NCBI GenBank assembly: GCA_947493215.1
Contig: CANLQE010000001.1
Coordinates: forward strand, 1,178,001 to 1,242,000
Reading direction: 5' to 3'
Length of the DNA: 64,000 bases
Origin: an uncultured Sphingomonadaceae bacterium
GTDB taxonomy: Bacteria; Pseudomonadota; Alphaproteobacteria; Sphingomonadales; Sphingomonadaceae
This document shows, one piece after another, positions 3,932 through 17,344 of this stretch (position 1 is the first letter of the stretch; the number at the start of each line of letters is the position of its first letter). The notes below the pieces were generated by a model that was given only the letters and a program-made list of their open reading frames with translations, was not told where the DNA came from and did no database searches. Position numbers and translations under genes: made by a program.

Positions 3932-5254
3932 TCATCCTGATTTGCTGGTTTGAAACTCAATCTCTGCGATACGGCGGAGCCAGGCACTCGCCTTCTGGCG
4001 ATGCATCCGAGGGGACAAACGTCCGTCAATTCTGGCAAAACCAAGCATCGCATAAGCAACGAGCGGGTTTTCTCGCGCCAAGGCTTCGGTATTGGGCAAA
4101 GGACCGTTTTCTGCCGCACGAACGGCCCGGGCAATCCGTTTGCGAATAGTTCGCGTGGCGTCCATCACTGATCGTTGCCCGAGTCCGGAAAAAGGTTCTC
4201 TTGCCAGCGCGCGCGCGACCATCGGCGCTACTGCAGCGATGGCTTTTGTTCTCTGGCCGGCCATCGTCCGTAAGCCGTCTCCATAGGTTTGCCAAAATCT
4301 TTGCTCCAGTCGTTTGAGCAGGGGATGCGGAGCCACTTCCCGCGCGAAAGCCAACGCAAAGGGAACGCGAACGGCGCCCGGCGGATGTGGGTCACCCTCT
4401 CGGATCCGGAATAAAAGCGGCGGAGGCAGGCTAAGTACGCGCTGCAGTCCGTCCACAGCCGGCGCGCCGCCACTAAAGCAGATGCCGAAGACATCCGCGA
4501 CTAGTTCGCTGGTCCATGATTGCCAAAGAGCCGCAATACGAGGACTGACCCCGCGCGCTTTGATTGTGGTCCCAATCAGCTGGGCCGACGGTTCCAACAT
4601 GTTCAAATCCGCAGCGAGCTGATGACCTATTTCGTGATGCGCACTCGAAAGACGAGTGGGATTAGACTCACGACTAATTCGCACCAATGATGCCGCGAGG
4701 ACAACCTGACCGGGCAAAGTCGTTCGTGCCCGATTGATGGCACCACCCCGGGTTTGACTATCGGGGTAACTGAACACTGGAGGTGATTGATATCCCGGAA
4801 CTTCGACCGCAGAGGCCTGCGCCAAAAGGATATCGCACCCCGCCATTTCCATTCCCACTTGAGCATCGGACCGCGAAGCTATCGCGTCGAACAGCATGTC
4901 ATATGTTGTAAACAGAGAATCGGCTCGCATTTGCAGCAAGGTAACGCGAAGATTTACAAGCCCGGGCTTGGTTGCCCTGCCCGATCCGGTCTTGAGGCTC
5001 TTTAAAAGATCCAAAACGTCGCGTTGCAAACGGCTGTTAGATTGGCGCAATCCCGACTCTATTGACTGCAACGTCACTGGACGTATTGCAGCAGCTGCGA
5101 CCGAAGGCAGTGACGATGATGGCAGGCGAAGCTGCTGCAAGCGCGCCAACAATTCCTGCAATCGATCGGCCGACCAGTCCAACCCCAATCCCGCCATATG
5201 GTTTGCAAGGCGACGAGGTACCCGATCCATCTGCAAGGATAACATCTGGTTCAT
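3932..5254 (-). CDS. Putative HEXXH zinc metallopeptidase
   Basis: 440 residues. HHEIGHQ (HEIGH at 207-211) is a classical HEXXH zinc site. A downstream ELVADVFG (Glu250, Asp254) fits the third ligand of gluzincin-type peptidases, and DPHPP (288-292) with a following Arg resembles the late conserved block of several such families. No signal peptide or membrane segment is visible. The first 130 residues are helical (Leu/Arg/Gln-rich) and may bind a partner. The ATG lies only 3 bases after the stop of the acidic protein gene and has no clear SD, which suggests translational coupling. It may process the acidic protein or a cell-envelope target; that is inference. Confidence 0.75.
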   Translation of the reverse strand: MNQMLSLQMDRVPRRLANHMAGLGLDWSADRLQELLARLQQLRLPSSSLPSVAAAAIRPVTLQSIESGLRQSNSRLQRDVLDLLKSLKTGSGRATKPGLVNLRVTLLQMRADSLFTTYDMLFDAIASRSDAQVGMEMAGCDILLAQASAVEVPGYQSPPVFSYPDSQTRGGAINRARTTLPGQVVLAASLVRISRESNPTRLSSAHHEIGHQLAADLNMLEPSAQLIGTTIKARGVSPRIAALWQSWTSELVADVFGICFSGGAPAVDGLQRVLSLPPPLLFRIREGDPHPPGAVRVPFALAFAREVAPHPLLKRLEQRFWQTYGDGLRTMAGQRTKAIAAVAPMVARALAREPFSGLGQRSVMDATRTIRKRIARAVRAAENGPLPNTEALARENPLVAYAMLGFARIDGRLSPRMHRQKASAWLRRIAEIEFQTSKSG

Positions 5255-5257
5255 CGG

Positions 5258-6145
5258 CTATTGTGGACCCATGGCTAGCAAAGCAGGGCGAACACCAACC
5301 GGGATATTTTGACTAACGGCTCTCGACAAAGCGTCTGTGGCAACTTCAAAGTAATCACCCTCGGACTCCCCGACCATTTCCATTTCACCGGAAACTTGAT
5401 CCAGAGTTCGTACGATATTCTTTGCCAGTTCAAATTGCGCCTGTGCATAAGGAACGGATTCCATTTCGCGGCCCATCAACTGGCCCAGAATTCCCTTGCC
5501 AAATTTCGACTGCAGGATTGCTGCCAGCGGATTCCCACCCTGGCCCAGAAAATTCCGAAAACCACGTCCGGCGGAAAAACCACGCGAGCGGCGCCGGCGG
5601 CGGCGGCGACCTCGTCCACCGCCACCGCCAAGAGCAGAACCAAGAGCCTTGCCTGCAATACCGCCCACAGCGGTGCCCAGTCCCGGAATGAAGCTACCGA
5701 GACCGGCTCCAACAAGCGGTGCAGCACGCTTCAAAAAGGGCCGCGCAAATTTGACTAGTTTTTTGGCGCCTTTGAAGATCTTTCCGAGGAACTCTTCGGC
5801 CTCCTGCGGGGTTTGCAATGCCATCAAATCACTGGCCAGCGACTCAAGTTCGGCCTCTGTTAGACCTTGAGCCGCATATACCCCAGTAGAATTTGCTTCA
5901 TATTCATAGGCTTCAAATTCATTCTCAGCATCATCCGCGAAATCGAACTCATATTCGTCTTCATCAAACGGCATTTCATAAGCACCGGCGCCCCATTCCG
6001 CTTCAGCTTCTCCGGAAAACTCGTTCTCGTTCTGCTCAAATTCATTGCCTAACTCATATTCGCTTTCATATTCCGACATTTCGTTTGCCGAAGATTCCAT
6101 GCTCTCAAGAATGACTTCGTTGAGGGCGTTTCCGCTATGACGCAT
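5258..6145 (-). CDS. Acidic / glycine-zipper / poly-arginine protein, first gene of sigma-54 operon
   Basis: 295 residues with a striking three-part build. Residues 1-85 are rich in Glu, Tyr, Phe and Asn in short repeats (SEYESEYE, EDEYEFDF). Residues 97-121 form an amphipathic helix ending EEFLG. Residues 146-177 are a glycine zipper (VGAGLGSFIPGLGTAVGG and onward) long enough to enter a membrane, followed at 178-189 by a run of seven Arg. The C-terminal third has FELAKNIVRTL. There is no signal peptide. An AAGGAGA site lies 8 bases before the ATG, and the start is about 34 bases after the predicted sigma-54 transcription start. From memory, proteins of similar build occur scattered in many bacteria without assigned function. 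A pore-forming or membrane-associated role is inference. Confidence 0.8.
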   Translation of the reverse strand: MRHSGNALNEVILESMESSANEMSEYESEYELGNEFEQNENEFSGEAEAEWGAGAYEMPFDEDEYEFDFADDAENEFEAYEYEANSTGVYAAQGLTEAELESLASDLMALQTPQEAEEFLGKIFKGAKKLVKFARPFLKRAAPLVGAGLGSFIPGLGTAVGGIAGKALGSALGGGGGRGRRRRRRRSRGFSAGRGFRNFLGQGGNPLAAILQSKFGKGILGQLMGREMESVPYAQAQFELAKNIVRTLDQVSGEMEMVGESEGDYFEVATDALSRAVSQNIPVGVRPALLAMGPQ

Positions 6146-6188: not shown

Positions 6189-6204
6189 AGCAAGGTGCGT
6201 GCCA
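6189..6204 (-). promoter_or_regulatory. Sigma-54 (-24/-12) promoter
   Basis: Read on the minus strand the sequence is TGGCACGCACCTTGCT, an exact match to the consensus TGGCACRNNNNTTGCW with correct spacing between GG and GC. Transcription would start near 6178 and reach the acidic-protein ATG at 6145. The gene immediately upstream encodes a sigma-54 activator. Confidence 0.93.
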
Positions 6205-6323: not shown

Positions 6324-7682
6324 TCAGTGCCTACCTTGTGTCGGGGCAGAGCCATTTAACCGATTATAGACTGTCCGCTCGGATATACCCAACCTCCTCG
6401 CCGCTCGTCTGATAATGCGTGTTTTGCTTTCCGTCGGGTGGTTACGGCCAAGCTGCTCTATTTTCATCTGAACGGCGTGTTTTCCGCATGCAGAAATTAT
6501 TTCATCCAGCGGCAAGTTTTTTGCCACTAGGTTTGAGATAACTCCTTTCGGAACAGCGCTTTTTGCATCAAGTTTCTTCCCGGCAATCAGGCCCCGCGGC
6601 AAGTCAGGTACCCGAACTAGCCGCGGATCAATCATAGATGCAGCGGTGATCCGGGCCACCATTTCAAGTTGCCGGACATTTCCTGGGAAAGACGCTTCTA
6701 TCAAAATATCTTCAACTTCGGTATCGAGGGTGACTGCTTTATTGTGTACCAAGTATTTTTCCATGAGAGCCTTGAACAGTACCGGGATATCTTCTCGCCG
6801 CTCTTCCAGAGGCGGCAGTTCAATACGCAATCCATCCAACCTGAAATATAGGTCATCTCGAAAACTCGTTTCAACATGATCATCTCTAAGCGTCCTGTTT
6901 GTCGCCGAAACGATCCGGCATTGCACGTCAAACTGTCGGTCCGATCCGACCGGCCGAAATTGCATTTCCTGCAATACACCAAGCATCGCTGCTTGCAGGT
7001 CGGATGGCAAGTCGCCGATCTCATCCAACACGAGCGTTCCCTTTCCAGCACTGGCGATTGCTCCCAGGCGATCTTTTTCGGCGCCCGTAAATGCTCCGCG
7101 AACATGCCCAAAGAATTCGCTGGAAAAAAGCTCTCCACTGGAAGCTCCGCAATCAAAAATCCTGAACGGATAATCTGCGCGCCCTAAATCTACTTGGTGT
7201 AAACAACGGGCTACAAACATCTTACCGGAGCCCGTCGGTCCGGTTATCAAGACAGGGGTGTCGGCAAGTGATGCTGCGCGAGCAACCCTCTTGCGGATTT
7301 CTTTGGCTGCCCTGGAGCGGCCTACAAGGCCCAGTTCATGATCCAGATGGTCGGCAATCCTGCTAATCTTGAGGAGGCGTTCGATACAAGCTGAAATAAT
7401 ATCTTTACAAGAGTCTTGATCATCAAAAACGACCTCGCTTGCACCGCAACTCATCAGCCGACGCACTGCAAACCCTCCGAAACGACTTGACGAAAGAATC
7501 ACAACTACAGAATTTCCGGAACAACTACCCAAGCCAGAAATGGATTTTATCTCGTTTTCGAGCCCTTCAGCATCTACACAATCGACAATCAGGGGTGACA
7601 CCAAACTGGCTAACCAGTTTGGTGGTGTCTTTCCTACATAGATTATGGATATGCGTTCGCTGTCGGATTCGCCGGCCATCAC
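6324..7682 (-). CDS. Sigma-54-dependent transcriptional activator (bEBP) with degenerate receiver
   Basis: 452 residues. The AAA+ domain has Walker A GPTGSGK (148-154), the sigma-54-contacting GAFTGA loop (196-201) and Walker B LVLDEIGD (217-224). The C-terminus carries a Fis-type helix-turn-helix (about 425-445, RAARRLGISERTVYNRL). The N-terminal 110 residues look like a decayed response-regulator receiver: the late half (VVILSSS, CGASEVVFDDQD) is visible, but I find no phosphoacceptor Asp in the usual acidic context. It may be controlled by protein contact or abundance rather than phosphorylation. The start is GTG-ATG tandem (7682/7679) behind GGGAGAG. It lies directly upstream of the operon it presumably controls. 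Confidence 0.92.
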   Translation of the reverse strand: MMAGESDSERISIIYVGKTPPNWLASLVSPLIVDCVDAEGLENEIKSISGLGSCSGNSVVVILSSSRFGGFAVRRLMSCGASEVVFDDQDSCKDIISACIERLLKISRIADHLDHELGLVGRSRAAKEIRKRVARAASLADTPVLITGPTGSGKMFVARCLHQVDLGRADYPFRIFDCGASSGELFSSEFFGHVRGAFTGAEKDRLGAIASAGKGTLVLDEIGDLPSDLQAAMLGVLQEMQFRPVGSDRQFDVQCRIVSATNRTLRDDHVETSFRDDLYFRLDGLRIELPPLEERREDIPVLFKALMEKYLVHNKAVTLDTEVEDILIEASFPGNVRQLEMVARITAASMIDPRLVRVPDLPRGLIAGKKLDAKSAVPKGVISNLVAKNLPLDEIISACGKHAVQMKIEQLGRNHPTESKTRIIRRAARRLGISERTVYNRLNGSAPTQGRH

Positions 7683-11607: not shown

Positions 11608-12825
11608 TCAGAGTGATAGGAAAAACTGGAGCAAGAACGAATTGGCTATATCGACAAAAAAGGCACCAACCAACGGAACGATGATGAAGGCCGTCGGTGA
11701 AGGCCCGTGTGATTTGGCGACAGCTGACATGTTAGCAATCGCGGTTGGTGTTGCCCCTAATCCGAAACCTGCAAAACCAGCGCTCAATACGGCTGCAAAA
11801 TAATTTCGGCCCATGACCGGGAACACCACAAAAAGAATGAACAAGACGGTGACAATCACTTGGGCAGCAAGCAATATGAACAATGGACCAGCCAAGTCCG
11901 CAACTTCCCAAAGCTGCATTCCCATCAGCGACATTGCGATGAACAAACCCAGTGAAAAATCCGATATGAGCGCCAAGGCGTTTGAGCCTGAGGGCCACGC
12001 AACTTTCTTGAAAAACATCGGAATGGTGTTTGTCATCAATATCGCGACCATCATACAGGATACGAACAACGGCAGTTTTAGACCAATTTCAACCAGAAAT
12101 TCATTGAGACCATAGCCAAAAATCATCGCGATATGGATGATCAGGATCGAGCCCATGATATTCAGATGGTTGATGCTGGTATGGTCTTCTTTGTCATATT
12201 CTATACCGACCAAAAGCTTGGAATCATCCGTACTCTCGAGCTTGTGCCGGGACATGAGAAAGCTGGCTATCGGGCCACCGATCAAGCTCGCGATGACCAG
12301 CCCAATGGTGGCAGCCGCAACGCCAATTTCAAGCGCGTTGGTTACGCCTTGGGTCTCGGCAATTGTTGGCGCCCAGGCAATGGCGGTGCCATGACCGCCA
12401 GCCAATGAAGCGGAACCGACCAGCAAGCCAACTCCGCCTGGCTGACCAATGGCAAGCGCGCTGAAAAAGCCTACGGTATCCTGAATAACCAGATAAGTGA
12501 GCGTTAGCCCTAACAGCAAAAGCAGCGGCTTCCCGCCCGCCAGAAGCTGAGCAAAGCGGGCGTTGATACCGATTGTCGTAAAAAAGTAGATCAGAAATAC
12601 GTCACGCGTGAACAGATCATATTCAACCTCCCAACCTCCAACCAGATAAAGAGCCAAAGCCGCGAGCGATGCGAAGATGCCGCCGGTTACAGGCTCCGGA
12701 ATATTATATTTTTGCAGGAAGCCGATGCGGGCTGTGATCTTGATACCGATGAATAGCACAATAATGCCGAGTGTCAGTGTTACGAAGCTGTCAAACTGGA
12801 TCATGCTGTCGGACAGATATTCCAT
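11608..12825 (-). CDS. gltS: Sodium/glutamate symporter
   Basis: 405 residues, about ten to twelve hydrophobic segments. The family hallmarks are GGHGTAIAWAPT after a Gly-rich re-entrant region (GLLVGSASLAGGHG), and the symmetrical late block AGFAGFGLGATPTAIANMSAV. It imports glutamate with Na+ across the inner membrane. The start lies only 8 bases after the stop of the outer-membrane factor gene, so it appears to be the last gene of the RND efflux operon, an unusual partner for an efflux pump. It could support osmotic balance or fuel supply; that is inference. Confidence 0.93.
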   Translation of the reverse strand: MEYLSDSMIQFDSFVTLTLGIIVLFIGIKITARIGFLQKYNIPEPVTGGIFASLAALALYLVGGWEVEYDLFTRDVFLIYFFTTIGINARFAQLLAGGKPLLLLLGLTLTYLVIQDTVGFFSALAIGQPGGVGLLVGSASLAGGHGTAIAWAPTIAETQGVTNALEIGVAAATIGLVIASLIGGPIASFLMSRHKLESTDDSKLLVGIEYDKEDHTSINHLNIMGSILIIHIAMIFGYGLNEFLVEIGLKLPLFVSCMMVAILMTNTIPMFFKKVAWPSGSNALALISDFSLGLFIAMSLMGMQLWEVADLAGPLFILLAAQVIVTVLFILFVVFPVMGRNYFAAVLSAGFAGFGLGATPTAIANMSAVAKSHGPSPTAFIIVPLVGAFFVDIANSFLLQFFLSL

Positions 12826-12833
12826 CGCTCGGT

Positions 12834-14267
12834 CTATTGCTCGACGTCGTCAATATTGACCGAAGCCTCGTTCCAGTCGCCGCCCAGGGCCAGACTGATT
12901 TCGACATATTGATTCAGCTGCGCCCGTTTCAGCGATAGCAAGCTGCTCTCTGCCCCAAATAAACGCTGCTGGATGGACAAGACGTCGATCAGATCAATCT
13001 CGCCTTCCTTATATTGTAACAACGAAAGCCGCAGCGCGTTGGATGTTTCTTTGGCTGCATTTTCCTGCGCCGCTCGTCGTTTGCGCAGAAAGACACCGCG
13101 ATCCAAAGCAGACTCGACCTCGGTAAAGGCATTGATAGCGGTATCGGCATAGGCCGCGACGGCCGCCTCTACATCGGCTTCGCTAATCTCGACTTGTGCG
13201 TCACGTCCACCGCCATCAAAAATCGGAGCAAGTAAATTGGAGGCCAAAGTCCAAACCACATTGGCAGGGTCGAGAAGATTGCCCAGTTCATTAGAGGCGC
13301 CACCTAAGTTCGTTGATAGCGATATGCTGGGCAGTTTGGCCGCTTCGGCTGACTTTCGGCTGTTGATTGCTGCAGCAATACCGCGTTCGGCTGCAATTAA
13401 ATCAGGGCGCCGTTGCAGCAGTTCCGACGGCAGGCCCGCTCCGGGTGGATTGGGGCTAAGGGGAAGCACTACAGGCGTTTTTAGATCGGCCCCGGGATAG
13501 CGACCAATCAATGCTTCTAACGACCGCAAAGCTTCGATCTTGCCATTTTTGGCGGCTTCCAGGGTATCGATAGACGAAGATAGATCGGCTTGGGCCAACG
13601 ACACATCATAAGCGGATGCAAAGCCATAGCGATACCGTAGACGCACGATCCTTACGATTTCGGTCAGCGCGGTGACGATATTTTGCGCAACCTCAATCTG
13701 CTCTTGCGATTCAATCACCACAAAATAGGATTGCGCGACCGCGCCCGCGAGCGAATATTGGGAGAAAATATATCCCGCTTCCGCAGATCGTGCGCTTTCG
13801 ACGGCCGCCTGTTCACCCGCTTCGATGCGGTTCCAGATATCGATTTCCCAATCAACCTGAACGCCAAGAGTGAACGACGTTGAACCTGCTCCATTTTCAA
13901 GGGGTTCGCGGCGCGTCACATTGCCCGACAGACCAGCATTTGGCAGCAACGGCGAACCGGCCTGTTTCGCCAAGGCCCATGATCTCCGGACATTGGCGGC
14001 GGCTGCGCGAAGGTTGCGGTTATTTTTTTGGGCCTCTTGCACCAGTTCCACCAGCAACGGATCGTTGAAATCGGCAATCCAACCAACATTGACATCACCG
14101 ATACGATCCCGCGCTGATGTCCAGCTTGGTGGGATAGGCGGCAGGCTTTCCGACGCTGCGGACGCGGTTTCACTTTGCGTGGCGGGTGATATGCTTGCAC
14201 AGCCCGAGAGCAATGCAGTGGTCGATATCAAAGTGGCAAGAAGGCGAGGCTTTGTCAGATAGCTCAT
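12834..14267 (-). CDS. Outer-membrane efflux lipoprotein, NodT/OprM family
   Basis: 477 residues with a lipoprotein signal (LLSGC, Cys22). The two repeated OEP domains are helical and periplasmic, with typical motifs NNRNLRAAAANVRRSWALAKQAGSPLLP, LEALIGRYP, LLQRRPDLIAAERGIAAA and the last helix GEIDLIDVLSIQQRLF. It forms the trimeric outer-membrane channel of a tripartite pump. ATG overlaps the RND pump's TGA by 4 bases (ATGA), showing tight coupling. Confidence 0.93.
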   Translation of the reverse strand: MSYLTKPRLLATLISTTALLSGCASISPATQSETASAASESLPPIPPSWTSARDRIGDVNVGWIADFNDPLLVELVQEAQKNNRNLRAAAANVRRSWALAKQAGSPLLPNAGLSGNVTRREPLENGAGSTSFTLGVQVDWEIDIWNRIEAGEQAAVESARSAEAGYIFSQYSLAGAVAQSYFVVIESQEQIEVAQNIVTALTEIVRIVRLRYRYGFASAYDVSLAQADLSSSIDTLEAAKNGKIEALRSLEALIGRYPGADLKTPVVLPLSPNPPGAGLPSELLQRRPDLIAAERGIAAAINSRKSAEAAKLPSISLSTNLGGASNELGNLLDPANVVWTLASNLLAPIFDGGGRDAQVEISEADVEAAVAAYADTAINAFTEVESALDRGVFLRKRRAAQENAAKETSNALRLSLLQYKEGEIDLIDVLSIQQRLFGAESSLLSLKRAQLNQYVEISLALGGDWNEASVNIDDVEQ

Positions 14268-17200
14268 GCTTCGGCTCCCTCGCTTTCACGCTCTGCAATC
14301 TCATCCGGCGCAATCCGGAAGAACATCACATAGAGAACTGGGATAATCACCAAGGTCAGCACCGTGGCAAAGGTCAGACCAAAGACCAGAACAACCGCCA
14401 TGGATTTGAAAAAGGCATCGAGGAAAAGAGGGATGACGCCCAAGACCGTGGTCAGTGATCCCATCATGACGGGGCGCACACGGCTTGCGGCGGAGTCCAG
14501 CACCGCATCATAACGGGGTTTACCCTCTCTGATTTCCAAATCCATTTGATCAACCAAAACGATGGCATTTTTAATGAGCAGGCCGGAGAGCGACAGCAGA
14601 CCGAGAATAGCCATAAATTCCATAGCCGTGCCCGTTACCAGCAATCCGAATACGACGCCGATAAGAGACAGGGGAACCACCAGCCAGATGATCAAGGGCT
14701 GTTTGAGGGCGTTGAACAATACAACGACGACAAGCACCATCGCCAAGAAGCCAAGCGGCAAAGTACTGGCAAGACTTGAATTGGCCTCGCTACTGTCGCC
14801 AATTTCACCGTTCCATTTAAGCGAATAACCCTCCGGCAGCGCGATATCTTCAATATCAGGTTGGACTCGCGCGAGAAGGTCCGCCGCCAGTTCGCCGGGC
14901 AAAGGATCTGATTGCGCATTAATTGTCCAGACCCGGTCGACGCGGCGCAATTTGGCATTTTGCCATTTGGTTTCAAACTCATCGACCACTTCCAGAATCG
15001 GCACCGATTTGCCGGACTTTGGACTGGTGATCTGGATACCGCGCATACTGGTTGCATCAAGCCGCTCACGCTCTGGTGCGCGGGCAATGATCGGTACAAG
15101 CTGATCATCCTCACGATAGACACCGACATTCCGTCCAGAGAAATTTGTGCGCAGTGCATTGGCGAGATCTTCACGTGATACGCCAAGTCGCCTACCGCTG
15201 TCCGCATCATAAGTCGGTTCAATGACGCTAACTGGTTGCCGCCAGTCATCCTTGATTGAGATAGCGCCACCATCGGCGGCCATGACCGCCTTGGCTTTAT
15301 TGGCTAGTTCTCTAAGCACCACCGGATCAGGTCCCGAAAATTCGGCCTCAATTTTTGAGCCGCCGCCCGGCCCCAATTGGAACTGCCAGACTTTGGCTTG
15401 TGCGTCGGGATAATTGGCGTCGATATGCTTTTGCAACTGCGGAAGCAGTCCCTTGATCACATCATAATCATCGGTTTTAATCAGGAATTGCCCATAAGCT
15501 GAACTGGGCGATTCCGGCCCATAGACCAGCATGTATCGCAAGGTGCCCATGCCGACCAATGACTGGACATCCTTGATGCCCTCTTGCTTCATCAGAAATT
15601 TTTCGAGCCGTTTTACTTTGGCATCGGTCTCCGTAATGTCGGTGCCTTCAGGCAGGTTAAAATCTACAACAATCTGCGGACTGGTAGAAGGCGGAAAAAA
15701 GCCGGGCGTGACATAGCTGAACCCGAATACCGACAGCACGAACAATGCCACCACTGTGATCAAGGCGAGTTTCGACTTCGTCAAAACTTTCCGCATGAAA
15801 TTCTTGTAGGCCACAAAAAACGGATGCTCTGGTTTTTCTTCGATCGGCTCATCGCTTGGTTCAGCGAAAAGGATATCGGCAAAAAGCGGCACGGCGGTGA
15901 TCGCAAATATCCAGCTGTACAGCAGGGACACCATCACGACCCAGAATAGGTCGCCAGTAAATTCGGCGGTGGATCCCGGGGCAAATCCAATTGGTGCAAA
16001 GGCAATAATCCCAACCAATGTGCCACCGAGTAACGGCCATTTGGTGCGCTTCACAATCTCCTTGGCGATATCGAGCTTTTTTCGGCCCTGCTGGGTACCG
16101 ACCAATATGCCTTCGGTGACAACAATCGCATTATCGACCAACATGCCCAGTGCGATGATCAGTGCGCCTAGAGATATCCGGTGCATCGGAATATTGATCA
16201 AATACATGGTCGCCAAAGTTGCCGCAATTGTGAGCACGAGAACGGAACCGATAACGACTGCTGATCGTAGCCCCATGAAGAAGAAAAGCGTGACCAAAAC
16301 AATGAGGAGTGCGGCGAGTACATTTAACGCGAAATCGGCAACCGCCGTTTCGACAATTTTGCCCTGATGATAATATTCATGAATCTCGACACCAATAGGA
16401 CGCAAGCTCTTGGTTTCTTCCAGCTTGGCATCAATTGCTGCCCCCATTTTGGCAACATTCGCTCCGGAAATATTGGAGATGCCAATGGCGATGGCGGGCT
16501 TCCCGTTATAGCGGACAATGAAGCTGGTCGGGTCCTGATAGTCGCGGGTGACTGTTGCGATATCTCGCAGCGTTACAATCGTCCCGGAAGAGGCGGTGGA
16601 AATGACCAGATTGCCAATCGCTTCGACGGAATCAATCTGACCGGTAGGCTGGAATTTCAATCGGCGGTTACCAAGCTTTATATCGCCTGCGGGCGTGACC
16701 GAATTTTGTTGCGCCAAGTCGCCATATATTTGATCAACGGACAGGCCCAAGGCATTGGCGCGTTCGCGGGAAATTTCAACATAGATTGCTTCTTGCTGCA
16801 TCCCCAATGGTTGCACCTTGGCGACGTCATCAACGGAAAGCAGATCGGTACGCAGTGACCGGATATATTTATACAGCTCAGCAGACGTGTAACCGTCGCC
16901 TGTCACCAGATAATAGAGCCCGTAAACATCTCCAAAATCATCATTGACCACTGAAGTTTCGACACCGGGTGGAAGCCGTGACTGGGCATCGTTGACCTTG
17001 TTTCGTAGCTTGGTCCAGATCAACTGAAGGTCAGCCTTTTCCGGTGAAAATTTGTATAGAATATCAACGCTGATTTCGGAACGCCCGGCAGACGAAACCG
17101 ATCTGATTTCTTCCACTTCCTGAAGTTGTTGAATGGAACTTTCGAGTGCTTCGGTCACTTCGTTGGCGACCTCTTCAGGCGTTGCCCCTGGATAAGTGGT

Positions 17201-17344
17201 GACCACCTGCGCGGTCCGGATCGTGAATTCCGGATCTTCGAAGCGCGCAATATTTTGAAAGCTATACCAACCGCCAACCAAGGCAAGCGCAATGACAATG
17301 AAACAAATCAGCCGGTTTTTAATCGAAAACTCTGCAAGATCCAT
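14264..17344 (-). CDS. RND-family efflux pump, inner-membrane subunit (AcrB/HAE1-like)
   Basis: 1026 residues, the usual RND length. It opens with one membrane helix (NRLICFIVIALALVGGWYSF), has two large periplasmic loops and two sets of membrane helices. Conserved segments include the TM4 region GMLVDNAIVVTEGI, where the proton-relay Asp sits, and GLLIKNAIVLVDQMD in the second half. Substrates are likely hydrophobic drugs or detergents but are not readable. Its start lies 12 bases after the adaptor gene; its end overlaps the outer-membrane factor gene. Confidence 0.95.
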   Translation of the reverse strand: MDLAEFSIKNRLICFIVIALALVGGWYSFQNIARFEDPEFTIRTAQVVTTYPGATPEEVANEVTEALESSIQQLQEVEEIRSVSSAGRSEISVDILYKFSPEKADLQLIWTKLRNKVNDAQSRLPPGVETSVVNDDFGDVYGLYYLVTGDGYTSAELYKYIRSLRTDLLSVDDVAKVQPLGMQQEAIYVEISRERANALGLSVDQIYGDLAQQNSVTPAGDIKLGNRRLKFQPTGQIDSVEAIGNLVISTASSGTIVTLRDIATVTRDYQDPTSFIVRYNGKPAIAIGISNISGANVAKMGAAIDAKLEETKSLRPIGVEIHEYYHQGKIVETAVADFALNVLAALLIVLVTLFFFMGLRSAVVIGSVLVLTIAATLATMYLINIPMHRISLGALIIALGMLVDNAIVVTEGILVGTQQGRKKLDIAKEIVKRTKWPLLGGTLVGIIAFAPIGFAPGSTAEFTGDLFWVVMVSLLYSWIFAITAVPLFADILFAEPSDEPIEEKPEHPFFVAYKNFMRKVLTKSKLALITVVALFVLSVFGFSYVTPGFFPPSTSPQIVVDFNLPEGTDITETDAKVKRLEKFLMKQEGIKDVQSLVGMGTLRYMLVYGPESPSSAYGQFLIKTDDYDVIKGLLPQLQKHIDANYPDAQAKVWQFQLGPGGGSKIEAEFSGPDPVVLRELANKAKAVMAADGGAISIKDDWRQPVSVIEPTYDADSGRRLGVSREDLANALRTNFSGRNVGVYREDDQLVPIIARAPERERLDATSMRGIQITSPKSGKSVPILEVVDEFETKWQNAKLRRVDRVWTINAQSDPLPGELAADLLARVQPDIEDIALPEGYSLKWNGEIGDSSEANSSLASTLPLGFLAMVLVVVVLFNALKQPLIIWLVVPLSLIGVVFGLLVTGTAMEFMAILGLLSLSGLLIKNAIVLVDQMDLEIREGKPRYDAVLDSAASRVRPVMMGSLTTVLGVIPLFLDAFFKSMAVVLVFGLTFATVLTLVIIPVLYVMFFRIAPDEIAERESEGAEA

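Follow-up and report, generated by a model that had tools for sequence, protein, structure and literature searches.

The stretch of DNA analysed here, 64,000 nucleotides long and referred to below as the window, carries on its minus strand five genes in the order sigma-54 activator (7682-6324), glycine-zipper-like protein, 440-aa HEIGH protein, 516-aa protein and 607-aa VanY-domain protein (Table 1). According to the ORF listing, the zipper gene starts with an ATG at 6145 on the minus strand; an earlier note on this DNA had named no strand for 5258-6145 and is corrected in this respect. That note had placed a metallopeptidase gene 3 bases further on, and the peptidase-like ORF (3932-5254) indeed starts 3 bases past the stop codon. 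Elsewhere in the window, the ORF list read by eye contains an apparent efflux/transport operon (11608-17344) with ORFs like an RND pump, an outer-membrane factor and a sodium/glutamate-type symporter.

Table 1. Features of the gene cluster, with positions in the window
Feature	Positions	Strand	Evidence
Variable-slot enzyme, 607 aa: VanY-type D-Ala-D-Ala carboxypeptidase domain and a C-terminal part without identity	500..2323	-	PF02557, E=7.7e-19
Protein C, 516 aa	2348..3898	-	Grouped homologues in 70/88 loci
Metallopeptidase-like protein, 440 aa	3932..5254	-	HExxH and ExxxD invariant in 28/28; no Pfam family; model pLDDT 87
E250..D254 (ExxxD), presumed third zinc ligand	4493..4507	-	Invariant in 28/28 aligned relatives
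HEIGH (HExxH), residues 207-211	4622..4636	-	Invariant in 28/28 aligned relatives
Acidic/cationic/glycine-zipper-like protein, 295 aa	5258..6145	-	ORF; family profile E=2.2e-11
C-terminal helices, residues 233-291	5273..5449	-	pLDDT 84-92 at 231-280, 72 at 281-290
Seven consecutive Arg, residues 180-186	5588..5608	-	Sequence; peculiar to the window protein
Glycine-rich zipper-like stretch, residues 146-177	5615..5710	-	Sequence; profile alignment with relatives; pLDDT <50 at 152-184
Conserved helical hairpin, residues 97-125	5771..5857	-	pLDDT 90-94 (101-120), 74 (121-130)
Acidic-aromatic N-terminal tract, residues 1-85	5891..6145	-	Net charge -28; motif common to relatives and many cluster enzymes
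Sigma-54 -24/-12 type promoter TGGCACGCACCTTGCT	6189..6204	-	43 bases before the ATG; exact match to TGGCACGNNNNTTGCW
Sigma-54 activator, putative regulator of the zipper operon	6324..7682	-	PF00158, E=1.2e-51; grouped homologues in 46/88 loci

Counting the residues of the zipper protein bore out the earlier description of its first 85 residues as dominated by Glu with Tyr and Phe, since this tract holds 24 Glu, 5 Asp, 6 Phe, 6 Tyr (hence 12 Tyr/Phe) and 1 Trp, with a net charge of -28. Residues 146-177 (GAGLGSFIPGLGTAVGGIAGKALGSALGGGGG), previously called a glycine zipper, do form a glycine-rich, zipper-like stretch, but the spacing is only weakly non-random, because the maximum of four overlapping G...[GAS]...[GAS] repeats per 40 residues was equalled by 14/200 whole-protein shuffles that kept the composition. 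The seven Arg said to follow directly are present at 180-186, with R178-G179 between them and the end of the zipper stretch at 177, so that the description was nearly exact. A run of at least five Arg occurs in 1/59 non-overlapping window ORFs of at least 100 aa, a run of at least four in 0/66 delimited relatives, and the longest run among 163 profile-matching ORFs is five, in one of them; the seven-Arg run is thus not conserved and is peculiar to the window protein. The best 20-residue hydropathy mean is 1.47 in the window protein, with a median of 1.07 and a maximum of 1.50 in 66 relatives, and by this measure the hydrophobicity of the zipper proteins is modest and low for a transmembrane helix.

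Relatives were collected by a peptidase-alignment scan of GTDB contigs, which gave 246 relatives, of which the best 80 loci were kept. A member of the zipper family lies directly upstream of the peptidase and on the same strand in all 75 of these 80 loci with room for it, the remaining five being contig edges with no upstream sequence, and the opposite strand of the best 80 loci gave no profile match to the family. This association is not built into the sampling, because the peptidase rather than the acidic protein served to choose the loci; the family profile received no sequence from 22 of the 75. A first regular expression had missed the family in 21/84 loci with upstream sequence, two of them plasmid loci. 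Within 3 kb upstream, the 75 loci hold one copy (26 loci), two copies (46) or three (3). Another 36 profile-matching ORFs lie downstream, in 35 loci, and at least 17 of them exceed 360 aa and would so be fusions, read-throughs or enzymes. As a separate observation, the downstream matching ORFs often carry CxCxxC near the start, e.g. MHRPNCNCPKCQ (L027 14400-15089, L038 15686-16378, L047 15175-15948); counted at any position, the motif occurs in 24/36, possibly as a metal site or disulphide.

The profile was built from 76 relatives of 190-260 aa and matches the window protein at E=2.2e-11; among 400 shuffles (200 whole-protein and 200 preserving the composition of each segment), the best reached 0.096. 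The same profile gave 3.1e-73 for the protein of genome G002, and 1.5e-6 and 5e-5 for distant cousins in G190 and G444. Clustering of similar proteins, a check proposed in the earlier note, has yielded a family; judged by sequence, the window protein belongs to this nameless group, whose members begin with an acidic-aromatic tail, continue with a helical hairpin and a glycine-rich segment of basic charge, and finish in helices. For charge measurements, 66 of the 76 members, chosen on length and motif, could be segmented by script. The N-terminal part is negative in 66/66, the Gly/Ala core positive in 66/66 and the last 40 residues positive in 65/66. The acidic, hydrophobic and basic layout that had been read from the window protein is thus a family trait of these delimited members, but the window protein itself departs from its relatives at the end, where the last 40 residues carry a net charge of -4. 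It is also long, at 295 aa against 207-248 aa in the 66 measured relatives, which had been preselected at 190-260 aa.

Without preselection on length or motif, a strongly acidic-aromatic 40-residue window was found in 109/127 upstream copies and at least three zipper-type repeats per 40 residues in 104/127. For the copy nearest the peptidase, in the loci with room among the best 80 of 246, the figures are 75/75 and 70/75. Homologues lacking the zipper, which had been named beforehand as evidence against the original proposal, do exist: by this measure they account for 23/127 upstream copies. Most of these are second copies whose neighbour does carry a zipper, but L085 and L092 lack the repeats in every upstream copy. 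Copies without the acidic tract or the zipper are mostly second copies in loci of the Massilia/Duganella/Janthinobacterium type. In four instances (L031 8544-9140, L037 8677-9207, L047 8820-9212 and L073 8500-9168) an extra upstream copy has lost both the acidic tract and the zipper and kept the helical end; such extra copies of Massilia/Duganella/Janthinobacterium type may be either partners of a different kind or decaying copies.

E115, F119 and G121 are invariant in an alignment of 57 sequences. The window zipper stretch aligns in the profile with the LPvvGsalGGlfGGplGakiGs stretch of the relatives, the profile alignment and MAFFT disagreeing on the register. A C-terminal GxWxRxGxxI motif is present in 68/76 acidic proteins and absent from the window protein. 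In the 22 loci with two full-length copies (10 of them from Nitrosomonas or close kin), 44/44 members are nearer to copies holding the same position in other loci than to the adjacent one, and in a tree the two positions separate on either side of a single branch, whose support is modest (74/85). Many clusters thus hold two old and distinct paralogues; the window cluster has a single copy. A second subfamily was seen in L009/L015 (G190) and L011 (G444), consisting of an acidic zipper protein, an extra gene, a peptidase relative, two further large proteins and a short HTH gene, judged by eye to be of LuxR type; its acidic protein ends in a different basic, helical-looking C-terminus.

An AlphaFold model of the zipper protein built with the 57 sequences is all helix or coil with no strand, at a mean pLDDT of only 63.9. 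Its confident parts are residues 101-120 (90-94) and 231-280 (84-92), with lower values at 121-130 (74) and 281-290 (72) and pLDDT <50 at 152-184 and 188-218. The model had no PDB match at E≤0.001 in a fold search. An ordinary soluble fold, which the earlier note had said would tell against it, was not modelled for the zipper region, where confidence is so low (pLDDT <50 at 152-184) that the model proves little.

The combination of HExxH with a downstream ExxxD is the gluzincin pattern, and it was found in the 440-aa protein and in 28/28 of its relatives. Foldseek with the peptidase model gave no match at E≤0.001. The zinc metalloprotease Zmp1 (3zuk) stands at rank 20 of the VIA results (Z 6.5, rmsd 4.5, 177 residues, model residues 133-364), and the rows above it mostly match the N-terminal helical bundle of the model; the likeness to Zmp1 is suggestive at most. 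Some longer relatives of protein C match beta-sandwich models (carboxypeptidase-regulatory 7/28, SpaA 5/28), and a profile search of solved structures gave no match for either the peptidase or protein C. A distant peptidase homologue was also seen at 8569-9990 of L019 (3240-12962, a Bradyrhizobium quebecense plasmid), among genes for an S8/S53 peptidase, a patatin, a DUF2252 protein, a phospholipase D-like protein and two CHAT-domain proteins. The scripts detected no acidic zipper protein in this plasmid locus, which is perhaps another conflict-type cluster with the same peptidase.

Neighbouring genes were grouped over 88 clustered loci, namely the best 80 of 246, four plasmid loci, the window and three genome loci. 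The groups that recur comprise the peptidase (73 loci), protein C (70) and the acidic proteins joined with some enzymes (67), followed by the sigma-54 activator (46), a PLP aminotransferase-like gene (44) and an amidohydrolase (32); since many contigs break off within the cluster, these counts are minimum values. The position occupied in the window by the VanY-type enzyme is variable, and 49 proteins of this slot were picked from 106 downstream ORFs, partly by clustering with the acidic group, near-copies and spurious-looking ORFs being excluded. Their Pfam matches are PG_binding_1 (27), Amidase_2 (6), PG_binding_3 (6), Peptidase_M74 (4), Trypsin_2 (4), Trypsin (3), VanY (2), OmpA (2) and GIY-YIG (2), with one each of GH25, glucosaminidase, DUF2272, M15_4 and M35. 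Two further observations concern this slot. In L087 (14433-15293, Niastella) a 286-aa protein with a CNCPSC N-terminus has no Pfam match at E≤0.1, and its end is, as we take it, nuclease-like in look; and trypsin-like-looking ORFs forming one cluster (group 16) in L026 (16570-17958), L071 (14118-15245) and L099 (13875-14720) might serve as a processing enzyme of another kind.

When hydropathy was assessed from the earliest start codon available, a signal-like N-terminus was found in 0/49 slot proteins, 1/73 peptidases, 0/74 C proteins and 0/84 acidic proteins, the test being blunted for the slot proteins by uncurated ORF starts, some of which lie too far upstream. The window VanY-type enzyme likewise has no signal-like N-terminus by hydropathy. 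At least two Glu/Asp-aromatic-Glu/Asp motifs occur in the first 80 residues of 74/76 acidic proteins, 21/49 slot enzymes and 4/281 other cluster proteins, and a basic Arg/Lys/Pro-rich 40-residue stretch in 28/49 slot proteins against 13/298 other cluster or neighbouring proteins; the motif and linker counts of the enzymes are inflated, because the 49 were picked partly by similarity to the acidic group. The VanY-type enzyme of the window has a motif count of 0 and no Arg/Pro linker. The recurrence of the acidic-aromatic motif on cluster enzymes suggests that it acts as a tag common to several proteins, beyond any role within one molecule.

The -24/-12 consensus of sigma-54 promoters, TGGCACGNNNNTTGCW, has a single exact match in the 64 kb, upstream of the zipper gene, where 0.05 were expected from shuffles. 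With one mismatch allowed it is still the sole match; 1.11 are expected in that test, and the weight of the promoter therefore lies in its exactness and its being in the right place. Sites reaching at least 10 of 12 positions within 300 bases upstream were found in 29/56 relatives against 33/1680 random control windows, the other 27/56 relatives having no such site. The motif is exact, an activator gene adjoins it and RpoN is encoded in the genome of the window; the zipper gene is very likely the promoter-proximal gene of an accessory operon switched by sigma-54, and we infer that the neighbouring activator acts on its promoter.

The cluster is patchily distributed. Within the genus it was found only in the window's own genome among 32, and in a phylum sample in 4/398 genomes, the window's own counted. 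A search of 196 genomes of the order gave the same gene pair in one other (G002) and a more distant version in G190; the peptidase was found in 3/196, again counting the window's own. One candidate from the three order matches that include the window's own genome, a short ORF of G094 (L003) which we take to be lipoprotein-like, was rejected as unrelated. Phage records searched with one peptidase relative gave no match, and the genus, phylum, order and phage results together indicate a patchy accessory cluster. By tblastn, the window peptidase matched five plasmid records and three acidic proteins matched none, perhaps because low-complexity filtering hides them. Comparison of the flanks within the genus did not resolve the insertion site. 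The best-scoring relative among the best 80 of 246, from Variovorax (L020), has a peptidase 41% identical to that of the window and retains the C-terminal GxWxRxGxxI; its five genes follow the order of the window cluster, from the activator through the acidic protein, the peptidase and C to the enzyme. By record labels, the gene pair occurs in Proteobacteria, Acidobacteria, Nitrospira, Bacteroidetes, Planctomycetes, Verrucomicrobia, myxobacteria and others, with many metagenome bins.

Searches of Pfam and NCBIfam at E≤1 gave no match for the zipper protein, the 440-aa protein or the 516-aa protein, PADLOC matched 0/9 proteins at E≤0.1, and a profile search of solved structures with the zipper family returned only designed helical proteins at E≥0.1. 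Weak matches of the 57 family members to Gly-zipper_Omp (6/57, best 0.0072), to scattered C19orf12, type-A lantibiotic, HlyE and SseD models and to PHROGs including phage tape-measure proteins (21/57, best 1.4e-5) were set aside, as we interpret them as reflecting Gly/Ala composition. DUF4157/eCIS-type and Nif11-type proteins were also considered and dropped for want of a match, and no published description of the zipper-peptidase cluster was found in the literature searched.

Several known systems resemble parts of the cluster. Phage holin-endolysin cassettes place wall hydrolases without recognisable signal peptides beside a membrane-active protein, and here, too, slot proteins that include wall hydrolases (0/49 signal-like; VanY in the window) accompany a putative membrane-active protein; the cluster differs in having no strongly hydrophobic helix, a sigma-54 promoter motif, extra conserved genes and no match in phage records (one peptidase relative). 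In bacterial gasdermins a pore protein is held off until a neighbouring protease cuts. The likeness lies in a putative pore protein beside a gene that is protease-like by its motif (75/75 loci with room), the difference in the beta-barrel pores described in the accessible parts of the gasdermin literature against helix or coil in the low-confidence model of the window protein. TelE and EsxX are further glycine-zipper precedents, as far as the portions of their descriptions at hand extend. The Cdz system of Caulobacter crescentus comprises, in the available part of its description, CdzC (86 aa), CdzD (84 aa), the type I exporter CdzAB and the immunity protein CdzI (PMC5380434). Two different glycine-zipper proteins, a patchy distribution and a proposed membrane attack are common ground with that account (PMC5380434). 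The window family differs in being accompanied by a peptidase-like gene and wall hydrolases, with no exporter or immunity protein recognised by eye among the 60 largest neighbour groups of the 88 loci or found in the five window proteins scanned, and the window protein, at 295 aa, is not a small zipper toxin of about 5-10 kDa of which a system has one to three. In Tde1, a T6SS DNase effector of Agrobacterium, a GxxxG zipper permeabilises the target membrane for passage of the enzyme, according to the part of the source available (PMC10240207). Zipper and enzyme there form one T6SS-delivered protein, whereas they are separate genes in the window cluster, and no T6SS genes were recognised among the recurrent neighbours of the 88 loci. 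Polymorphic toxins, in the section of the account at hand, share with the cluster constant neighbours and a variable enzyme, including peptidoglycan-binding modules (PMC3482391). Some of the variable enzymes here have an N-terminal motif in common, but among the proteins scanned none gave a curated match to a known delivery domain, and no immunity gene, such as a recurrent small neighbour, was recognised in the clustered ORFs of at least 100 aa of the 88 loci. The cluster is filed under none of the Cdz, Tde1, TelE or EsxX families; its parts resemble known principles, with a genuine possibility of its being an independent system.

Both the slot contents and the missing recognisable export signals speak for an envelope attack, either from inside (lysis) or delivered outside. 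The reading that we prefer, as a tentative possibility well short of probable, is a sigma-54-switched envelope-attack or lysis cassette with the acidic tract as a holding or docking tag and the zipper as the membrane-active part. The acidic-aromatic tail would keep the basic, membrane-seeking glycine-rich segment soluble and would gather the wall-degrading enzymes of the cluster, many of which have this motif too, with an Arg/Pro-rich linker behind it. Once the operon is induced, the complex would be processed by the HExxH peptidase encoded next door, the zipper segments, often of two different paralogues, would then assemble in a membrane, and the assembled zippers would let the enzymes reach peptidoglycan. 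Either the producer would lyse, in a programmed way and with release, or a neighbouring cell would. That the zipper enters a membrane, that the peptidase cuts, that the enzymes dock and which cell is the target are points that we infer. Against such a cassette stand the modest hydrophobicity, a zipper spacing near that expected from composition, the 5/75 nearest copies without zipper repeats, the poor fit of the PLP enzyme (44/88 loci) and amidohydrolase (32/88) to a simple lysis cassette, and the window itself, whose enzyme has neither motif nor linker and whose zipper protein lacks GxWxRxGxxI; 27/56 relatives have no sigma-54 site reaching 10 of 12, and no conserved cleavage site was identified in the zipper family.

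The electrostatic holding proposed in the earlier note fits the charge layout of the family, and its intramolecular form is the alternative closest to it: the acidic N-terminal part would be a propeptide neutralising the basic zipper part, and its removal by the peptidase would free a pore-forming or membrane-disrupting fragment in the manner of a gasdermin and its protease. The conserved acidic/basic layout, the peptidase gene directly downstream of a family member in 75/75 loci with room (best 80 of 246) and the intact HExxH and ExxxD in 28/28 all speak for it. We nevertheless consider it unlikely, if a serious competitor, given that the same acidic-aromatic motif occurs on cluster enzymes, that the acidic tract runs into a confidently modelled hairpin with no conserved cut site identified, that the peptidase activity is a prediction from motifs, and that neither the Arg run nor, in 5/75 nearest copies, the zipper repeats are conserved. 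The presence of the motif on the enzymes makes an intermolecular role at least as likely as electrostatic self-holding. Complementary charge tracts on different proteins of one cluster would also suit a cytoplasmic condensate or scaffold, in which acidic-aromatic tracts and Arg/Pro-rich linkers phase-separate and store the enzymes while the glycine-rich part serves for oligomerisation and never enters a membrane; low hydrophobicity, the lack of signal-like N-termini and a zipper spacing that some members dispense with agree with this. It is distinctly unlikely, as more than half of the sampled enzymes have peptidoglycan-binding domains and several are wall hydrolases, with a substrate outside the cytoplasm.

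A contact-dependent bacteriocin like Cdz, with the zipper proteins, usually two, exported to form surface aggregates on the producer that kill on contact, would account for the side-by-side persistence of two paralogue lineages in 22 loci, the glycine zippers of most members and the patchy distribution (1/32 in the genus; 4/398 in the phylum, own genome counted). It is very doubtful in view of protein size (295 aa, relatives 207-248 aa, against 84-86 aa for CdzD/CdzC in the available part of PMC5380434), of the single copy in the window, and of the 60 largest neighbour groups of the 88 loci (ORFs of at least 100 aa), among which no type I exporter or immunity gene was recognised by eye. Quite improbable, too, is a pathway without toxicity, serving envelope remodelling or small molecules, with the proteins as carriers or substrates matured by the peptidase, the PLP enzyme and the amidohydrolase. 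The PLP aminotransferase-like gene in 44/88 loci and the amidohydrolase in 32/88 (Pfam of one example each) are what it would explain, but the window cluster has neither, neither was seen by eye in the Variovorax locus L020, and the variable slot varies like an effector set.

The envelope-attack or lysis cassette may, in its fullest form, be a novel system in which one acidic-aromatic tag code would be shared by membrane-active zipper proteins and a swappable set of wall hydrolases, proteases and nucleases that carry Arg/Pro linkers, assembly through complementary charges would stand in for a classical secretion signal, the metallopeptidase would release the complex and sigma-54 would control it; this is somewhat unlikely. 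If true, it would offer a testable explanation of the way in which wall hydrolases lacking export signals might get out of a Gram-negative cell, and would give soil and ammonia-oxidising bacteria an additional weapon or lysis programme under sigma-54 control. What is at hand is a tightly linked gene pair, spread broadly across phyla, with no matching curated family model and no published description found in the literature searched. Even if the proposed mechanism is wrong, three conserved protein families without a name gain a defined operon, a promoter motif and partners.
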